Assembly (NCBI GenBank): GCA_018222915.1
Contig: JAAEZI010000029.1
Span: forward strand, 1 to 35,239
DNA: 35,239 nt
DNA from: Algicola sp.
GTDB lineage: Bacteria; Bacteroidota; Bacteroidia; Flavobacteriales; Flavobacteriaceae
Direction of reading: 5' to 3'
Shown one piece after another: positions 28,544 through 35,239 of this stretch. Below the pieces are notes generated by a model that was given only the letters and a program-made list of their open reading frames with translations, did no database searches and was not told the DNA's origin. Each line of letters begins with the position of its first letter. Position 1 is the stretch's first letter. The translations under genes and the position numbers were made by a program.

Positions 28544-29278
28544 TTACTTAAAATAGGATAACAAATCTGATTTCTTTGATGCGGAAACCATAATTTCCTT
28601 ACCATTACTCAGTACCACACTACCACCCTTTCCTTTAATATACTTTTTAACTTCATTTACGTTGACTAAATAACTTTTATGCACCCGAGCAAAACCACTA
28701 TCAGAAAGTGCTTCTTCAAAATACTTCAAGGTTTTACTCACCAATTTCTTTTTATTGGTGTTTAGATAGATTTCGGTGTAGTTATCATCCGCTTTACAAT
28801 ATAAAATATCTGCAGTCTCCAAAACATCAAACCCGTCTTGTTGTGGAATGGTAATCTTGCCATTCACATTATTGGTCTTGGGAACTAAAACTTGATCTTG
28901 CAGCGCATCTTCCTTCGTCTTAATTTCAGCGACATAATCGACAGCTTTTATCAGTTCATCAATCGAAATGGGCTTCATGAGATAATACGACGCATGTGCG
29001 TTTAAAGCATCTATAGCATAATGATTGTAAGCCGTAACAAAAACAGTTTCAAAGTTAATGTCACCAACCTTATCTAATAAATCAAAGGCATTGCCATAAG
29101 GCATTTCCACATCCAGAAAGACCAAGTCTAATTCTTGATTCCTAATAAGTATTAAGGCTTCCTCTACATTACCAGCCTCACCTAAAACTTCAACATTAGG
29201 GCAATATTTATGTAAGTAGTTTTTCAATATGGTTCTACTAGTTTCTTCGTCTTCTACAATGATTGATCTTAATTTCAT
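28544..29278 (-). CDS. LytTR-family response regulator
   Basis: This 244-residue protein has a receiver domain (about 3-120) with acidic pocket D10-E11 and phospho-acceptor D56 in LVFLDVEMP, then a LytTR DNA-binding domain (about 140-244, ending HKSYLVNVNEVKKYIKGKGGSVVLSNG). LytTR proteins bind pairs of short direct repeats about two helical turns apart. Its ATG immediately follows the stop of the kinase gene, so the two form one translational unit. A matching repeat array lies upstream of the divergent operon at 31547-31597 and is its likely target. Confidence 0.95.
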   Translation of the reverse strand: MKLRSIIVEDEETSRTILKNYLHKYCPNVEVLGEAGNVEEALILIRNQELDLVFLDVEMPYGNAFDLLDKVGDINFETVFVTAYNHYAIDALNAHASYYLMKPISIDELIKAVDYVAEIKTKEDALQDQVLVPKTNNVNGKITIPQQDGFDVLETADILYCKADDNYTEIYLNTNKKKLVSKTLKYFEEALSDSGFARVHKSYLVNVNEVKKYIKGKGGSVVLSNGKEIMVSASKKSDLLSYFK

Positions 29279-31450
29279 TTAATCTTTTTTTAAGGTTACA
29301 ACGACTTTAGTTCCCACATCCTCAGCATCTTGAAAATCATCAATAAACACATCCACCTTATCCTTATACATGTCATTTAAAATGGCCACACGCTTTTTGA
29401 TGTTGCCCATACCTTTGGATTTCTGTTTCTGTTGATTTTCTGTTTTCAGATCTTTGGAGCGTGCTCTCCCTATGCCGTCATCAGCGACAGTAATGGTGAT
29501 TTCATGATCACTTTTCTTAGCTATGGTAATTTTTAATAAGCCTTTTTCAGTTTTATATCTTAAGCCATGCCACACAGCATTTTCAATATAAGGCTGTAAG
29601 AGCATAGGTGGAATTTGGTACTCTCCAACGGCAACGTCATCCTTCACGATAATCTCATAATCGAATTTATCTTGAAATCTAAAATGCTCTAATTTTGTAT
29701 ACAGATCTAATAATTCAATTTCCTTTTGTAGTGGAATAAAATCTTCCTCACTATTCTCTAAAACAGCGCGCATGAGGTGCGAGAAATCTGAAAGGTATTT
29801 GTTCGCTGTACGTTCATCATTACTGGCTATAAAACTATTGACAGAATTGAGCGCATTGAAAATAAAATGCGGATTCATTTGGCTTCTTAAAGATTTCAGT
29901 GCTAACAAATTATTTGCCAATCGTTGTTGTTTGATGTATTTGAACATAAAAAATGCCGTAATAAGCAACAAAATCAGGCCGGTAATTAAAGAATAAATAA
30001 TAAGTTGCTGATTTTTATTTCGTTCGCTAGCCAGACTTGTAGTTAACGCACGATCACTTTCTAAACTCGTAATTCGGTTCTGCTGTTCAATAATATTTCG
30101 TCGAAACCTATCTGCCTGAGAAAGTTCTTGCTCTCGTCTAATGTAAAGTTCATCTACCACATTTTTATAAGACTCAAATGTTTCCTTAGCCTTTTCAAAG
30201 TTCCCAGCATCAACATAAACATCGGATAGCTTTTTGGTAGCGTCCTTTTTAACAATTAAATCAGATTTTGCGTCGGCCTCCTCAATACTTTTTTCCAAAT
30301 ATGGGATGGCACTATCATAATCCTTCTGTAAAAAATAGGCATTTCCAATTTTGTAATTTTGCTTTTGAAGGGTGAGGGCACTTTCATTTTCAATAATAGA
30401 ATCTCTTTCAACATCTTGAACATCTTCCACAATTTCTTTTCTTAGCTGAATCTCTTCGGAGTAATTCTGATTGGTATTTTGAAAATCGGCAACAGTCACC
30501 TTTTCTTCTAAAGCTCGTTTTTTCGTTTCTTTTTCAGCTAAATTAAGAGAGTTTACAAAGAAATATTCAGCCTTATCATTGCTTCCTTTTGCATTATAAG
30601 CTTGAGCTATCTTAGAGTTTAAATCAACAATCTTGGGTTTGATTAAATGTTTATTAGCCACTTCCAAACCTTTTTTAAAAGCCTCTACTGCCGCATCATA
30701 ATTCTTAATACTGAAATAGGTATCGCCGAGGCCCTCAAACAACACGACCAATTGATAGTTACTCAACTCCGGCTTGCTAATAGCGTTGTAGGTATCTAAG
30801 CTCTCCTGATAGTTCTTGTTCTTCTCATAGGCTTTCCCTAGGCCCAACTTGGCATGATTAGAAGCAACGTTCTGTAAACTCACCCTGTAGTTAGTTACGG
30901 CTAGATCATATTGTTTCCAGAACATATACACTTCAGCCAATACCAGATAAGCCTCTGCGTTCTGTTTTTGGGAACTACTTTGCTTAAGAGCGTCGCCTAC
31001 AAAAGCAATACTCTTTTCTACATTTTGTTTCTTATATTTTGCAACAGAATCAATTAAGGCATTAAAGGTCTTAATATCGGTCTTAAAATTAGTGTCTAAT
31101 TGTTTTGTGTCATCCGCAGGTTCCACTTCTACAGTCACGCGATGATCTTTACCGATGGTATAATAAACCGTTTCAAAATCTTTATGTCGAATGACTAGCT
31201 CATCACCTTCTCTTGCTTGAATTATAAAAGATCCATCAATATCCGTTCGCGTGTAGGCACCACCATTAACTTCAATATTCACCTTAGAAATGGGCTTATA
31301 TGTATCACTTTCTCTTACAGAACCTCGTATGGTGAAGTACGGTGCTGATTCACGCTGCACCGCTTCTTGGTCACGGGTATTTTGAGCCTTTAAATTTCCG
31401 AAGGAAAAGCAAAGCAACACCAGAATTAGATATGAAAAAAATGGTTTCAT
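29279..31450 (-). CDS. LytS-type histidine kinase with carboxypeptidase-regulatory and TPR sensor
   Basis: The 723-residue protein has a signal peptide (1-22), then a carboxypeptidase-regulatory-like domain (about 38-110; ISKVNIEVNGGAYTRTDIDGSF). TPR repeats follow at about 150-430 (AYLVLAEVYMFWKQYDLAVTNY, LGDTYFSIKNYDAAVEAF, GNAYFLQKDYDSAIPYLEKS), then a coiled coil (435-480) and one transmembrane helix (483-505). The cytoplasmic kinase is of the His_kinase/LytS type: H528 in QMNPHFIFNALNS, N-box N624 (ENAVWHGL) and G1 box DDGIGR (657-662). The sensor part is periplasmic and should read an envelope signal or protein partner. It pairs with the LytTR regulator directly downstream. Confidence 0.93.
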   Translation of the reverse strand: MKPFFSYLILVLLCFSFGNLKAQNTRDQEAVQRESAPYFTIRGSVRESDTYKPISKVNIEVNGGAYTRTDIDGSFIIQAREGDELVIRHKDFETVYYTIGKDHRVTVEVEPADDTKQLDTNFKTDIKTFNALIDSVAKYKKQNVEKSIAFVGDALKQSSSQKQNAEAYLVLAEVYMFWKQYDLAVTNYRVSLQNVASNHAKLGLGKAYEKNKNYQESLDTYNAISKPELSNYQLVVLFEGLGDTYFSIKNYDAAVEAFKKGLEVANKHLIKPKIVDLNSKIAQAYNAKGSNDKAEYFFVNSLNLAEKETKKRALEEKVTVADFQNTNQNYSEEIQLRKEIVEDVQDVERDSIIENESALTLQKQNYKIGNAYFLQKDYDSAIPYLEKSIEEADAKSDLIVKKDATKKLSDVYVDAGNFEKAKETFESYKNVVDELYIRREQELSQADRFRRNIIEQQNRITSLESDRALTTSLASERNKNQQLIIYSLITGLILLLITAFFMFKYIKQQRLANNLLALKSLRSQMNPHFIFNALNSVNSFIASNDERTANKYLSDFSHLMRAVLENSEEDFIPLQKEIELLDLYTKLEHFRFQDKFDYEIIVKDDVAVGEYQIPPMLLQPYIENAVWHGLRYKTEKGLLKITIAKKSDHEITITVADDGIGRARSKDLKTENQQKQKSKGMGNIKKRVAILNDMYKDKVDVFIDDFQDAEDVGTKVVVTLKKD

Positions 31451-31546
31451 TAATTGTTATTGAACGCAATAAACTTACGTGTTTTAATTGATTAAATAAA
31501 ACTGGTATTCGCAAAATGATGTCATTTTAAAGCCAATTAGTAGGCT

Positions 31547-31600
31547 TAACTCACTCAGTCCTATAACTGACTCATTGGCTCGTTGTATTGACTCATTTTG
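31547..31600 (+). promoter_or_regulatory. predicted LytTR operator: three 9-bp direct repeats at 21-bp steps
   Basis: TAACTCACT (31547-31555), TGACTCATT (31568-31576) and TGACTCATT (31589-31597) lie in the same orientation with exactly 12 bases between each, so they sit on the same DNA face two turns apart. The third copy runs into TTTG (31597-31600), a possible -33 element. A -7-like TAGATTTA (31626-31633) follows after 25 bases. LytTR regulators are known to bind such repeat pairs, and a LytTR gene is divergent from this site. The rest of the 31451-31654 gap shows nothing else recognisable. Confidence 0.6.
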
Positions 31601-31654
31601 GTTTTTAATGTCGATAAGATGCCCATAGATTTACCAGCATTAATCAAAATAATC

Positions 31655-32680
31655 ATGACAAAAATGAAAAACCTCACCTTAAGCATCTTGTTAATCATTA
31701 GCTATATTGGTACGACCAATGCCCAACATAAAGGAAATTATGATCTTATTTCCAGGCAAAACGTATTGCATTCAGGAAATGCGAATATTTACAATCCTAC
31801 TGTTCAGCAGCATATTAATAAAATCCTCAATCCAAGTACTACCGTTTTTATTGATGTAAAAGCCTTACAAAATGTGGAAGCGACTACTTATACAGCTATC
31901 TTCAACGTCTCTCAAATAGGACCAACGGCAGATAGTACAAACTTGCTTATGTCTCGTCGAGTTCAAAATATAAAAGAGGAACTCAAAAGCATTGGTATCA
32001 CCGAAGATGCTATTGCCATTGATGTCATTTCCTTCGTCCCTAATTACGAAATAGAAGTACAAAAAAAGCTATTTAGTAAAACATATACAGAAGTACCCAA
32101 CGGCTTTGAGTTACAACAAAACTTACACATTCAGTTTACAAAAACGAATCAATTTGAAAGTATTTTAACCGCTTGTGCCAAAAGTGAAATATACAATTTA
32201 GTAAAAGTGGATTACTATATTGAGAATATTGCGGAGGTCTACAAAAACCTTCAAACAAAACTCTTAAAACTCATTGAAGAAAAGAAAAGCTATTACAAGA
32301 CCTTAAGTTTTGATTTAGCAAACTATAATGTGGCCATTGCTGATGATCAATATTGTTATTTTCCTAAAGACTTTTATCAAAGCTATCAAGCCTTTAACAG
32401 TGTCTCTTTTGAGGCCATTAAAAAAAGAAAAGGCGTAACCACTGCAAAAAAGCAAACATCCTATTATTATCAGCCATTGTCTTATGAAAACTACGATGTC
32501 GTCATCAATCCTTCCATTTTAGAGCCTGTAGTTCAGATAGGCATGAATATCCGATTACAATATAGTCCGAAACCAGTCACAGCGAAACCAGAACCTGTTG
32601 TAAAAACTGAAATCAAGCACAAATATTATGTGGTATCACCAAATGGGACCTTAGATATTAAAGCATTACAAACCGATTAA
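31655..32680 (+). CDS. secreted SIMPL (DUF541)-like protein
   Basis: From ATG 31655 this is 341 residues with a signal peptide (first 24 residues, ending TTNAQ). The frame is open 19 codons further upstream to 31598, but that stretch overlaps the predicted promoter; the ATG at 31664 is an equally good start. The central region (about 55-200) has the SIMPL/DUF541 look: FIDVKALQNVEATTYTAIF strand, an alpha segment ending KEELKSIGITEDAIAIDV, then PNYEIEVQ and a second alpha/beta repeat. The C-terminal part (about 215-341) is Tyr- and Pro-rich and unassigned. It is probably periplasmic or on the outer-membrane surface. It is the first gene of an operon with a 48-codon gene and a VWA lipoprotein gene. 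Confidence 0.65.
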   Translation: MTKMKNLTLSILLIISYIGTTNAQHKGNYDLISRQNVLHSGNANIYNPTVQQHINKILNPSTTVFIDVKALQNVEATTYTAIFNVSQIGPTADSTNLLMSRRVQNIKEELKSIGITEDAIAIDVISFVPNYEIEVQKKLFSKTYTEVPNGFELQQNLHIQFTKTNQFESILTACAKSEIYNLVKVDYYIENIAEVYKNLQTKLLKLIEEKKSYYKTLSFDLANYNVAIADDQYCYFPKDFYQSYQAFNSVSFEAIKKRKGVTTAKKQTSYYYQPLSYENYDVVINPSILEPVVQIGMNIRLQYSPKPVTAKPEPVVKTEIKHKYYVVSPNGTLDIKALQTD

Positions 32681-32689
32681 TATAACACT

Positions 32690-32836
32690 ATGAAAACCAC
32701 CTTTTTTTTAACTGTCTTAATGACCTTAAACATGCCGACCTACAACAATCTTTTTGGCTATGGCTATAAGTTTGATGAACTCTTGAATGCTTTAGACAAG
32801 CGAGTACACTTTGAAGGTACGGCCATCCAAGACTAA
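32690..32836 (+). CDS. small 48-residue protein, unknown function
   Basis: An ATG nine bases after the SIMPL-like stop opens a 48-codon frame ending in TAA. A short hydrophobic N-terminus (MKTTFFLTVLMTLNM) is followed by NNLFGYGYKFDELLNALDKRVHFEG, which looks like a folded amphipathic helix. It could be exported or membrane-associated. Its position, exactly filling the gap between two same-strand genes with A-rich leaders on each side, supports it as a real gene. I recognise no family. Confidence 0.5.
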   Translation: MKTTFFLTVLMTLNMPTYNNLFGYGYKFDELLNALDKRVHFEGTAIQD

Positions 32837-32861: not shown

Positions 32862-34016
32862 ATGAAACAATTATTTAAAACCATGACTTGGGTCTTTTGC
32901 TTGATAAGTATGTTATCCTGCGATGCCAAAGTAAAGACAACCTCGAAGGAAATCGCTTTTAACACCAAAGTAAAACCTGCGAAAAAGCAATTCATAAAAG
33001 TGGCACTACTTCTTGACACGAGTAATAGTATGGATGGTCTCATAGATCAAGCTAAAGCACAACTTTGGGATATTGTCAATGAATTGTCCTATGCAAGATG
33101 CGCCGAACAAAAACCTAATCTTCTCATAGCCTTGTATGAATACGGTAATGACGGACTCAATAGCGAGGAGGGATTCATCAGACAGGTATTGTCATTTAGC
33201 AATGATTTGGATGTCATATCTGAAAAATTATTCTCGTTAACTACAAACGGTGGTAATGAATATTGCGGTCAAGTGATACAAACCTCACTAAATCAATTAG
33301 AATGGGGTGACGATCCAGATGACCTTAAATTGGTTTTTATCGCTGGCAATGAACCGTTTTCACAAGGGAAGGTCAATTACCAAGATGCTGCTAAGCAGGC
33401 CCATAAAAACGACATAAGCGTCAATACCATTTTCTGCGGTGATTACAATCAAGGCATTGCAACGTATTGGAAAGATGGCGCAGATCTTTCACATGGTAAT
33501 TACATGGCGATTAATCACAATCATGCCACCACTTATGTGGCAACACCTTATGATGATCAAATACTCCAGCTCAATCATAAGCTCAACAACACCTACATTG
33601 CCTATGGAGAAACCGGAAAGCAAAAAATGGCATTGCAATCTGAACAAGACGAAAAGGCTTATGGTTACAGTCAAGAAAACGCGGTGAGTAGAACCGTGAG
33701 TAAAAGTTCACATTTATATAAAAATTCGAGATGGGATTTGGTTGATGCTGAAAAGGAAGGAACGGTACAATTAGATCAATTGAAAAAAGAAGCCTTGCCT
33801 GAAGCGCTCAGAAAAATGAGTGCATCAGAATTAGAGGCTTATATAAAGCATAAACGTGAAGAACGAGACAAAGTTCAAAAAGATATTCAAAAGTTAAATG
33901 AGCAGAGACGACAATTTATATCATCTCAACAAAAATCAAATGACAATGGATTGGAAAGCGCGATGATAAAAGCGATTAAAACCCAAGCAAAAGCCAAAAA
34001 GTATACATGGCAATAA
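32862..34016 (+). CDS. VWA-domain lipoprotein
   Basis: The 384-residue protein has a lipoprotein signal peptide with lipobox L18-S19-C20. A von Willebrand factor A domain follows (about 45-250): the MIDAS motif DTSNS is at 52-56 (KVALLLDTSNSMDGLIDQAK), with further segments LIALYEYGNDGL, LTTNGGNEYCGQV and LVFIAGNEPFSQG. After a linker, a charged helical C-terminal part (about 310-384; ELEAYIKHKREERDKVQKDI) ends in KKYTWQ. VWA domains bind protein ligands through a metal ion; the substrate is unknown. Related VWA proteins occur widely in Bacteroidota, as I recall. It is the last gene of the operon under the predicted LytTR operator. Confidence 0.85.
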   Translation: MKQLFKTMTWVFCLISMLSCDAKVKTTSKEIAFNTKVKPAKKQFIKVALLLDTSNSMDGLIDQAKAQLWDIVNELSYARCAEQKPNLLIALYEYGNDGLNSEEGFIRQVLSFSNDLDVISEKLFSLTTNGGNEYCGQVIQTSLNQLEWGDDPDDLKLVFIAGNEPFSQGKVNYQDAAKQAHKNDISVNTIFCGDYNQGIATYWKDGADLSHGNYMAINHNHATTYVATPYDDQILQLNHKLNNTYIAYGETGKQKMALQSEQDEKAYGYSQENAVSRTVSKSSHLYKNSRWDLVDAEKEGTVQLDQLKKEALPEALRKMSASELEAYIKHKREERDKVQKDIQKLNEQRRQFISSQQKSNDNGLESAMIKAIKTQAKAKKYTWQ

Positions 34017-34017
34017 G

Positions 34018-34115
34018 ATGCATAGCGTTTCCCTTCTTTCTCACTTACCGGTTCGTAAGAAGGGTCGTGCTTTCGGTAGTCGCTATCAAAGATGAGCTCC
34101 AACAAAACCTCTATC
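34018..34115 (+). other. intergenic stretch with a hairpin and open short frames
   Basis: CCCTTCTT (34034-34041) is complementary to AAGAAGGG (34060-34067), with an inner CTTAC/GTAAG pair. Short frames run through on both strands (for example a 25-codon ATG frame from 34018), but none resembles a known protein. It may be a degraded gene end or a copy of a dispersed intergenic repeat; I cannot tell from one copy. Confidence 0.25.
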
Positions 34116-34123
34116 ACTAACGC

Positions 34124-34152
34124 AAAAAGTCTCGATAATATCGAGACTTTTT
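34124..34152. terminator. bidirectional terminator between VWA and porP/sprF genes
   Basis: AAAAAGTCTCGAT (34124-34136) and ATCGAGACTTTTT (34140-34152) form a perfect 13-bp stem with an AAT loop. A and T runs on both ends let it serve the convergent VWA and PorP/SprF genes. Confidence 0.9.
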
Positions 34153-34173
34153 ATATTTTTAAATAGGTGGTTT

Positions 34174-35181
34174 TTAATTAACGGCCGGACAATTACACTC
34201 GAATTTCTCTCTTCTACAGTTAAAGTTATAACCTAAAGTAATCTGGTGAAAACCACCATTATTGAATACCACTGAATTCGCTTGATACGAATACGTATAA
34301 GCAAATACAAAATTATTGTAATCTACCCCTACAAAAGGCGTGATATATTGTAGTTTTTGACTATTAACTCCAGAACCATCCAAATACTCGGCACCATCTA
34401 AGCTTCTTCTATAGGACAAACCACCCCATACTTTACCAAAGTCCATTTCTTTATAAGCCTTTGCATTGATATCAATGGAGGCTTCCTCTGTAGCATCTCT
34501 ATACATAAACATTACAGAAGGTTCAAAACTCCAATCACTGTTATACTTGCTAAACGTATTACCAGCTGAAAACAAATAAGTTCTAAGGTTGTTATAACTC
34601 AATCCTTGTTCATTAAAATTAATACCATCGTTATTTAAAACGTTTTTGACCGTAGCATGGGCATAAAAGTCTATCAAATGATAAGAAAAGCCAAAATCAA
34701 CATTGAAGTTGGTAGCACTTTGCTCAACACCTCCAATAATAGGATCAAAACCATCGGCTAAAAACTCAGTTTCATCCAATTTATATTGAATAAAACCAGC
34801 ACTCAGACCAAATGATAACATATTTAAGTCAATCTCATTTCGAGAAAACATCAAATGATGTGCATAAGTAAAATAGGCACCTGTTTGCGAATGATATCCA
34901 TTCTTGTCATTATACACAATGGCTCCTACTGCTGAAGGAGAATCTCCAATTCGTCCATTAATACTTAAGGTCTGAAGATTAGGTGCTTCTTCTTGACCAA
35001 ACCATTGCGCTCTTGCAGTAAGTCTAACTTTTGCACAATTAGCAACTCCAGCCATAGATGGATGTATCAAATAATAATTATCTGTTAAATAATCAGAATA
35101 AATAGGTAGTCCTTCTTGAGCTGATCCCAAATATGAGAACAGGGCTAAACTTGCTATTATACAATACTTTTTTAAATTCAT
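34174..35181 (-). CDS. PorP/SprF family type IX secretion system membrane protein
   Basis: This 335-residue protein has a signal peptide (about 1-21, ending GSAQ). Family features follow: the start GLPIYSDYLTDNYYLIHPSMAG, then RAQWFG, an outer-membrane barrel of alternating strands (GAYFTYAHHLMF, LSFGLSAGFIQY, FVFAYTYSYQAN) and a C-terminal LGYNFNCRREKFECN. PorP/SprF proteins help T9SS to export or anchor specific cargo and are often paired one-to-one with a large adhesin gene. Here the stop of such a candidate lies nine bases upstream. The C-terminus is Cys-rich (C-x-C). Confidence 0.93.
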   Translation of the reverse strand: MNLKKYCIIASLALFSYLGSAQEGLPIYSDYLTDNYYLIHPSMAGVANCAKVRLTARAQWFGQEEAPNLQTLSINGRIGDSPSAVGAIVYNDKNGYHSQTGAYFTYAHHLMFSRNEIDLNMLSFGLSAGFIQYKLDETEFLADGFDPIIGGVEQSATNFNVDFGFSYHLIDFYAHATVKNVLNNDGINFNEQGLSYNNLRTYLFSAGNTFSKYNSDWSFEPSVMFMYRDATEEASIDINAKAYKEMDFGKVWGGLSYRRSLDGAEYLDGSGVNSQKLQYITPFVGVDYNNFVFAYTYSYQANSVVFNNGGFHQITLGYNFNCRREKFECNCPAVN

Positions 35182-35190
35182 ATCGATGTT

Positions 35191-35239
35191 TTATCTTTTG
35201 AGGGTAAAATGGGCTTTAAATTCTTTTCGTTGTCCTGAG
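35191..35239 (-). CDS. C-terminal end of a probable T9SS type B cargo protein (partial)
   Basis: On the minus strand a frame enters from the window edge and ends in TAA, giving the last 15 residues, SGQRKEFKAHFTLKR. A short strand ending in Lys-Arg is typical of T9SS type B (gliding-motility) C-terminal sorting domains. The nine-base gap to porP/sprF fits the usual cargo-porP/sprF pairing. Only the tail is visible, so the call rests on context. Confidence 0.5.
   Translation of the reverse strand, partial: SGQRKEFKAHFTLKR

Follow-up and report, generated by a model that had tools for sequence, protein, structure and literature searches.

A conserved three-repeat candidate LytTR operator between a sensor kinase and a SIMPL/VWA operon in Flavobacteriaceae

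Results

Three copies of a short word, evenly spaced on one strand, lie between a divergently transcribed LytTR regulator–kinase pair and a SIMPL/VWA operon in a contig of Algicola sp. (35,239 nucleotides, analysed whole and referred to below as the window). The evidence strongly supports assigning this array to the LytTR class of operators, with new letters within a known class. Our preferred reading, to which we give a probability of roughly 0.83, is that the array is the operator of the response regulator encoded at 28,544–29,278, that it would activate the SIMPL-VWA operon, and that it would also tune the kinase-regulator operon. This reading draws on the repeats and their conservation, on fixed distances to promoter elements, on further sites and on co-occurrence with the regulator, all of which were established by sequence comparison.

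Geometry of the repeat trio

The three repeats are R1 (TAACTCACT, 31,547–31,555), R2 (TGACTCATT, 31,568–31,576) and R3 (TGACTCATT, 31,589–31,597), all on the plus strand, separated by 12-bp spacers and thus repeating every 21 bp. Letters and coordinates bear out the preliminary description of the window, made from the letters alone, which had reported a triple direct repeat of exact 21-bp periodicity with identical second and third copies. Scored on a 7-letter core, the trio reaches 20/21, against 15 for the next-best register in the window on either strand, and the spacers are not copies of the repeat unit. The motif given at the time, T[A/G]ACTCA[C/T]T, is present as described; what is conserved among relatives is the core ACTCATT, mostly in the form TTYACTCATT, and the G that precedes ACTCATT in R2 and R3 is uncommon (5–9% at both places among 43 genus sites). 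A mismatch-free TRACTCAYT-N12-TRACTCAYT is confined, in the 3.35-Mb genome, to the two overlapping pairs of this trio. When up to 3 mismatches are allowed, the same pattern matches 54 genome places, compared with 31 for the reversed pattern, so the loose pattern alone says little.

LytTR operators consist of 9-bp repeats 12 bp apart (PMC2766830) or, more broadly, of repeats 10–13 bp apart (PMC11347149; this and the other published sources are cited from excerpts). The trio, with direct repeats of about 9 bp, 12 bp between them and a period of 21 bp, falls within this geometry, and the earlier proposal that two-turn spacing of 9-bp repeats is a LytTR layout agrees with it. Operators with three repeats are likewise on record, for RcoM1 and CoxC (PMC11347149). 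Given the published spacing and these three-repeat precedents, the mechanism would be of a known kind.

Genes on either side of the array

On the minus strand, the presumed repeat binder is a LytTR response regulator (28,544–29,278; Response_reg plus LytTR). Its LytTR domain is recognised by Pfam at E 1.2e-20, which confirms the regulator-kinase pair previously noticed across the intergenic region; a sequence search against solved structures returned mostly receiver-domain matches. The adjoining sensor kinase (29,279–31,450, minus strand) combines a CarbopepD_reg_2-like part, below the curated cut-off, with TPRs, a LytS-type His_kinase domain and HATPase_c.

On the plus strand, the first gene of the predicted controlled operon encodes a secreted SIMPL-domain protein (31,664–32,680). 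It is followed by a 48-aa ORF (32,690–32,836) and by a VWA lipoprotein-like gene (32,862–34,016), the commonest gene behind the operator in the family (57 of 80 loci by motif search, as distinct from a domain scan). The 48-aa ORF resembles both ends of a rhodanese-like protein that in relatives has ~185 aa, the middle being absent from the ORF. At its position, 9 of 10 relatives (among L031-L041, two of them clipped at the end of the analysed sequence) encode a protein of ~180–190 aa, and the one such protein scanned, from L032, carries a Rhodanese domain (E 3.7e-11). The ORF thus looks like a remnant, left by a real deletion or by an assembly collapse in this genome.

Gene order varies around this core. 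SIMPL stands ahead of the VWA gene in some genera and has first place in others; 7 of the 23 genus genomes have no SIMPL gene, and all seven (L102-L108) carry the trio and a promoter box 28 bp beyond it in front of the VWA gene. The first suggestion, direct control of a SIMPL/small-protein/VWA operon, needs correction as to target: VWA is found behind the site more often than SIMPL, and the window holds one site of many. In several draft genomes, among them the window's (34,016–35,239) and those of L037, L038, L041, L043, L044 and L046, a PorP/SprF gene lies close to the contig end, which comes a few kilobases past the VWA gene. At L045 the next protein has an ending that resembles that of a gliding/T9SS surface protein, so repeated sequence may adjoin this region.

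Conservation beside the regulator

Relatives of the window's genome include Psychroserpens, Winogradskyella, Olleya and Subsaximicrobium. We compared a genus set of 23 Psychroserpens genomes, the window's own included, and a wider set of 299 Flavobacteriaceae genomes. When 16 genus loci were aligned upstream of SIMPL, ACTCATT-like words stood in three columns 21 bp apart against a freely varying background. One locus (L046), in which SIMPL starts at a greater distance, does not align with the others for that reason, and its trio is recovered in L110. Among 36 named SIMPL loci, 34 have a trio scoring at least 16/21 and 19 have a -7 box at 28 bp.

The family survey covered 80 genomes, in each of which we examined the sequence preceding the presumed kinase gene that adjoins the orthologous regulator. 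The best trio core score is at least 15/21 in 72 of these loci, drawn from many genera, at least 17/21 in 56, and below 15/21 in 8; since a score of 15 arises by chance in a 35-kb window, trios near that value rest on their position. Repeats upstream of orthologous operons, for which the preliminary description had proposed a search in related genomes, are thus conserved on both counts, and in 72 of 80 loci they lie beside the kinase of this LytTR regulator. The copies are unequally kept: R1 is the least conserved (mean core match 5.15/7 across the family), followed by R2 (6.0/7), which in several Psychroserpens, forming a subgroup, is reduced to CCTAAAC, and R3 (6.42/7).

A fixed distance to the SIMPL/VWA promoter

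The usual -33 element of Bacteroidota promoters is TTTG. At the corresponding position the window has TTTT (31,603–31,606, plus strand), without the G. The -7 box of the SIMPL/VWA operon, TAGATTTA (31,626–31,633, plus strand), begins 28 bp after R3; the flavobacterial primary-sigma consensus for this element is TAnnTTTG, located at -12 to -5 (PMC9723704). Transcription is predicted to start at ~31,638, and the positions of TTTT and TAGATTTA would place the R3 core at about -47 to -41.

This arrangement recurs. Among the 72 of 80 loci with a trio score of at least 15, 54 have a TAnnTTT[A/G] box starting exactly 28 bp past R3, and eight listed loci of the Winogradskyella group have a box with an altered start at the same distance. 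The box reads TAnnTTTA in 96% of the 54 VWA-side sites and TAnnTTTG in 81% of 43 genus sites; both percentages refer to sites that had been selected by the presence of a box at this distance. The three T's at -33 are present in 54, 53 and 54 of the 54 family promoters, and a full TTTG at that spacing is seen in 1 of the 54 sites from the family and in 6 of the 43 from the genus; the TTT of the element is retained and its G is missing. A -33 element without its G fits, in our view, an activator-dependent promoter. The TTTG abutting the last repeat, from which it was earlier argued that a bound activator would touch RNA polymerase, does not serve: it overlaps the repeat (31,597–31,600), lies 25 bp from the -7 box and is not conserved.

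These distances bear on the sign of regulation. That the regulator binds but represses, the occupied array blocking RNA polymerase, is an unlikely reading that finds a precedent in CoxC, a repressor with three repeats whose operator overlaps the -35 element (PMC11347149). Here, in contrast, the array stops 5 bp short of the predicted -33 element, whose TTT hardly varies and whose G is lacking in almost all sites, and LytTR-type regulators are for the most part activators with binding sites upstream of -35 (PMC11347149). Activation is accordingly the sign that our preferred reading retains.

Further sites and a candidate regulon

The pattern TTNACTCATTNAAAN7TTNACTCATT, allowing up to 3 mismatches, matches 175 places in the genus set, in 23 of 23 genomes, versus 15 for reversed controls; a variant with a spacing of 20 bp stays close to its control, with 18 places versus 8 reversed. 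To the question whether 21-bp pairs might be as frequent at random places, raised at the outset as a way to refute the operator, the related genomes thus answer with numbers far above the control. Six of the matches fall in the window's genome; the trio itself, because its spacers lack the AAA, is missing from these six. Out of 54 distinct annotated sites, 2 lie in long ORFs, 30 have a -7 box at 28 bp and 9 have one at 49 bp, as expected if a further repeat follows (28 + 21). One gene group (MRT...-type proteins) has a different sequence at the box position. With a shorter exact pattern, 9 of 44 rows fall inside long ORFs.

Many of the Psychroserpens sites precede genes for exported proteins. 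Pfam assigns the candidate targets to a DUF6146 lipoprotein, CarbopepD_reg_2 proteins, TraB/gumN, VWA_4, a CarbopepD_reg_2 + Plug + vWF_A + VWA + YfbK_C protein, MG2 + Plug, a full alpha-2-macroglobulin, and a DUF4140/DUF4139 protein with a CarbopepD_reg_2-Plug insert; one target operon has a transglutaminase-like second gene. In the window's own genome, sites precede the DUF6146 gene (L429), a gene for a 205-aa secreted protein (L004), one for a 132-aa CarbopepD_reg protein with a trio of its own (L016), and one for a 946-aa CarbopepD_reg protein followed by an MG2-Plug gene (L445). Of two unconvincing own-genome sites, one (C82/L343) has no gene that we could find downstream and the other (C84/L345) lies within coding sequence.

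A TonB-plug domain occurs in three proteins of the set, of DUF4139 (L447:210-2378), YfbK-type VWA (L449:205-2271) and MG2 type (L445:3038-5683). Two of the three also carry CarbopepD_reg_2, and in the one of DUF4139 type the cassette is embedded in that domain. In the window's genome the MG2-Plug gene is cut short and overlapped at its end by another open frame (L445:5554-6099), perhaps through a frameshift or a sequencing error.

Co-occurrence of site and regulator

At E ≤ 1e-60 the regulator is found in 154 of 299 family genomes and in all 23 genus genomes. A strict pair of repeats is present in 55 of the 154 regulator-positive versus 14 of the 145 regulator-negative genomes (Fisher 4.5e-8), nine genomes with microsatellite-only matches being scored as without a strict pair. 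A finer feature, an A in second place of the spacer together with TT before repeat 2, marks 34 of 76 versus 2 of 16 of the sites listed for the two kinds of genome. Tandem arrays of ACTCATT-like heptamers were observed in nine family genomes (G024, G138, G196, G206, G218, G254, G298, G310 and G122).

The DUF6146 gene, for which the literature searched yielded no mention, allowed the comparison to be made at one locus. Forty genomes of each kind, mostly larger and complete, were chosen from the 145 negatives and 154 positives, and DUF6146 is present in 40 of 40 of either kind. Taking the best 30 of 40 loci each, 29 of 30 negative and 28 of 30 positive loci were used, together with 22 of 22 from the genus. 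An operator with its box at 28 bp precedes DUF6146 in 20 of 22 genus loci, in 14 of 28 other regulator-positive loci and in 0 of 29 regulator-negative loci (14/28 versus 0/29, Fisher 5e-6); at this gene the site with its box goes together with the regulator. A pair scoring at least 11/14 without the box was found in 2 of the 29 regulator-negative loci, and half of the non-genus regulator-positive loci have no site at DUF6146. In a DUF6146 tree the two kinds of genome are interleaved, with 12 changes among grouped rows and 22 over 79 rows, of which only 3 are forced by well-supported branches. The supported branches give 6 independent pairs; in 2–3 of these the two members are unlike with respect to the site, each time as expected and never the other way round, a number too small for significance.

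The array might be a real operator that answers to another protein, either one of the eight other LytTR proteins or a regulator outside the class. We regard this as improbable. In its favour, the genome encodes nine LytTR domains, 99 of the 154 regulator-positive genomes have no strict pair, and in one genome (G003; L045, L097) kinase, trio and SIMPL stay together with the regulator gene ~26 kb off, beside a different gene, and with no VWA gene between SIMPL and PorP. With regulator and kinase separated in this way, the sequence taken as the kinase-upstream region of G003 (L109) is another place, on the mutS side. Against another binder stand the trio of at least 15/21 beside this regulator's own kinase in 72 of 80 loci and the absence of a DUF6146 site with box from 29 of 29 regulator-lacking loci. 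Adjacency and co-occurrence pick out the 28,544–29,278 regulator among the nine LytTR proteins, and do not prove it.

The kinase-side promoter

A conserved block of ~40 bp precedes the kinase gene (31,462–31,501, minus strand). It is strongly conserved within the genus and includes the presumed kinase promoter, with a presumed -7 box TAAGTTTA (31,470–31,477, minus strand) 71 bp from R1; the block also contains an imperfect palindrome, TTTAATTGATTAAA. A kinase-side TAnnTTT[A/G] box lies 71–73 bp from R1 in 65 of 72 loci, at 72 bp in 60 of them, and at 71 bp in the window. In 13 of the 80 loci the fragment has neither a VWA motif nor a 28-bp box. Twelve of the 13 have a trio (scores 15–20), and all 12 keep the 71–73-bp distance; the thirteenth has no trio. 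Ten of the 12 are clean cases, since in L200 and L227 something like an altered box stands at 28 bp. Because the kinase-side distance is kept, also in loci without VWA motif or 28-bp box, we infer two jobs for the array, activation of the VWA/SIMPL genes and control of the kinase-regulator operon, which it probably also serves.

Taken to the extreme, the same 12 loci could mean that the array serves the kinase-regulator operon alone and that the SIMPL/VWA operon is a bystander. This is very improbable in view of the strict 28 bp to the VWA-side -7 box in 54 of 72 loci, the better conservation of R3 than of R1, and the recurrence of the 28-bp rule at other promoters; the altered boxes of L200 and L227 limit even the favourable loci.

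Repeat spacing across the family

For a scan of spacings, 70 of the 80 kinase-upstream regions were used, 10 being left out for a short flank or a long kinase ORF. Pairs of ACTCATT-like words scoring at least 12/14 occur at a spacing of 21 bp in 53 of the 70 regions and at 42 bp in 34, compared with 0–12 regions for any other spacing between 8 and 63 bp. No pairs in opposite orientation were found in any of the 70 regions. Each of 20 shuffled sets contained a pair in 0–1 regions. Chance or simple-sequence origin, which the tandem ACTCATT-like arrays mimicking the pattern in 9 of 299 family genomes might suggest, is a negligible prospect: conservation across the family and fixed distances in many genera exclude chance, the spacing peaks (53/70 and 34/70) exceed anything in the shuffles, and at the window's locus the spacers are not unit repeats, so that a microsatellite origin was rejected.

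Discussion

We propose that the neighbouring kinase phosphorylates the LytTR regulator, which in its phosphorylated form would bind TTYACTCATT repeats at a 21-bp period along one face of the helix. The bound regulator would then contact RNA polymerase at a promoter that has TAGATTTA as its -7 box and TTTT at -33, turning the SIMPL-VWA operon on. From 71–72 bp away, the same array would also act on the kinase-side -7 box and so tune the kinase-regulator operon, a form of self-regulation. Other copies of the site, usually pairs, may control DUF6146, CarbopepD_reg/TonB-plug, YfbK-type VWA, alpha-2-macroglobulin-like and DUF4139 proteins. The sensor part of the kinase, with its CarbopepD_reg_2-like region and TPRs, and the exported nature of the targets suggest the state of the envelope as the signal, which is a guess.

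In many Flavobacteriaceae the operator word, at fixed distances from the promoter, marks a group of genes for the cell envelope that seems to be so far uncharacterised. We offer as a tentative idea, possible and still on the doubtful side, a family-wide envelope-surveillance regulon in which a CarbopepD_reg-like/TPR kinase and its LytTR partner work a two-way switch of three repeats phased to two divergent promoters. If true, the regulon would drive exported proteins in which CarbopepD_reg and/or TonB-plug domains are joined to VWA/YfbK, alpha-2-macroglobulin (MG2) or DUF4139, along with SIMPL, rhodanese-like and DUF6146 proteins, and in Bacteroidota it would correspond to the Cpx/Rcs envelope responses. 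The analysis supplies a specific operator sequence, a promoter rule (a -7 box 28 bp on, with TTTT in the -33 position) and a handful of targets, several of them with domains of unknown function. Experiments can now address directly what the regulator does and what SIMPL, VWA, DUF6146 and DUF4139 proteins are for.

The literature searched, which leaves most subscription journals outside it, gave no LytTR binding motif or regulon for Bacteroidota. LytTR regulators themselves are common in flavobacteria and number about 4–20 per Flavobacterium genome (PMC5395568; an approximate reading of a table whose blank cells were lost). In F. johnsoniae, several coevolved lines carried mutations in the adjacent tags FJOH_RS09515/09520, which stand for a LytTR regulator and a histidine kinase (PMC10197871); to equate this pair with that of the window would be conjecture.

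Comparison with known LytTR systems

Like the operators of the AgrA/VirR/SilA class, which have 9–10-bp direct repeats with 11–12-bp spacers upstream of the promoter and a LytTR response regulator (PMC2766830), the array combines short direct repeats with a linked regulator of this type. It differs in its word, TTYACTCATT, in its three copies and in its Bacteroidota promoter with TAnnTTT[A/G] at -7.

With RcoM1 and CoxC it shares three direct repeats two helical turns apart, which in those systems are bound by a LytTR domain (PMC11347149). Between the RcoM1 consensus TTCNNGCA and TTCACTCA here, all specified letters agree but one, a T for a G, so that the match falls short of complete (PMC11347149, excerpt). 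RcoM1 and CoxC are CO-responsive through a sensor domain within the same protein, whereas the window encodes a response regulator with a receiver domain and a separate kinase, which sets it apart from them. CoxC represses. For the present array a multi-gene envelope regulon is proposed.

The E. coli systems YpdB (yhjX) and BtsR (yjiY) resemble the present one in pairing a LytS-type kinase with a LytTR regulator. The BtsR (yjiY) motif has letters other than those of TTYACTCATT. Both E. coli systems differ from the window's in their letters, their transporter targets, the two copies in yhjX and their sigma70 promoters. The likeness is one of architecture: the yhjX probe, too, has tandem repeats with a 21-bp period, GGCATTTCAT occurring twice (PMC4847170, Table 1).
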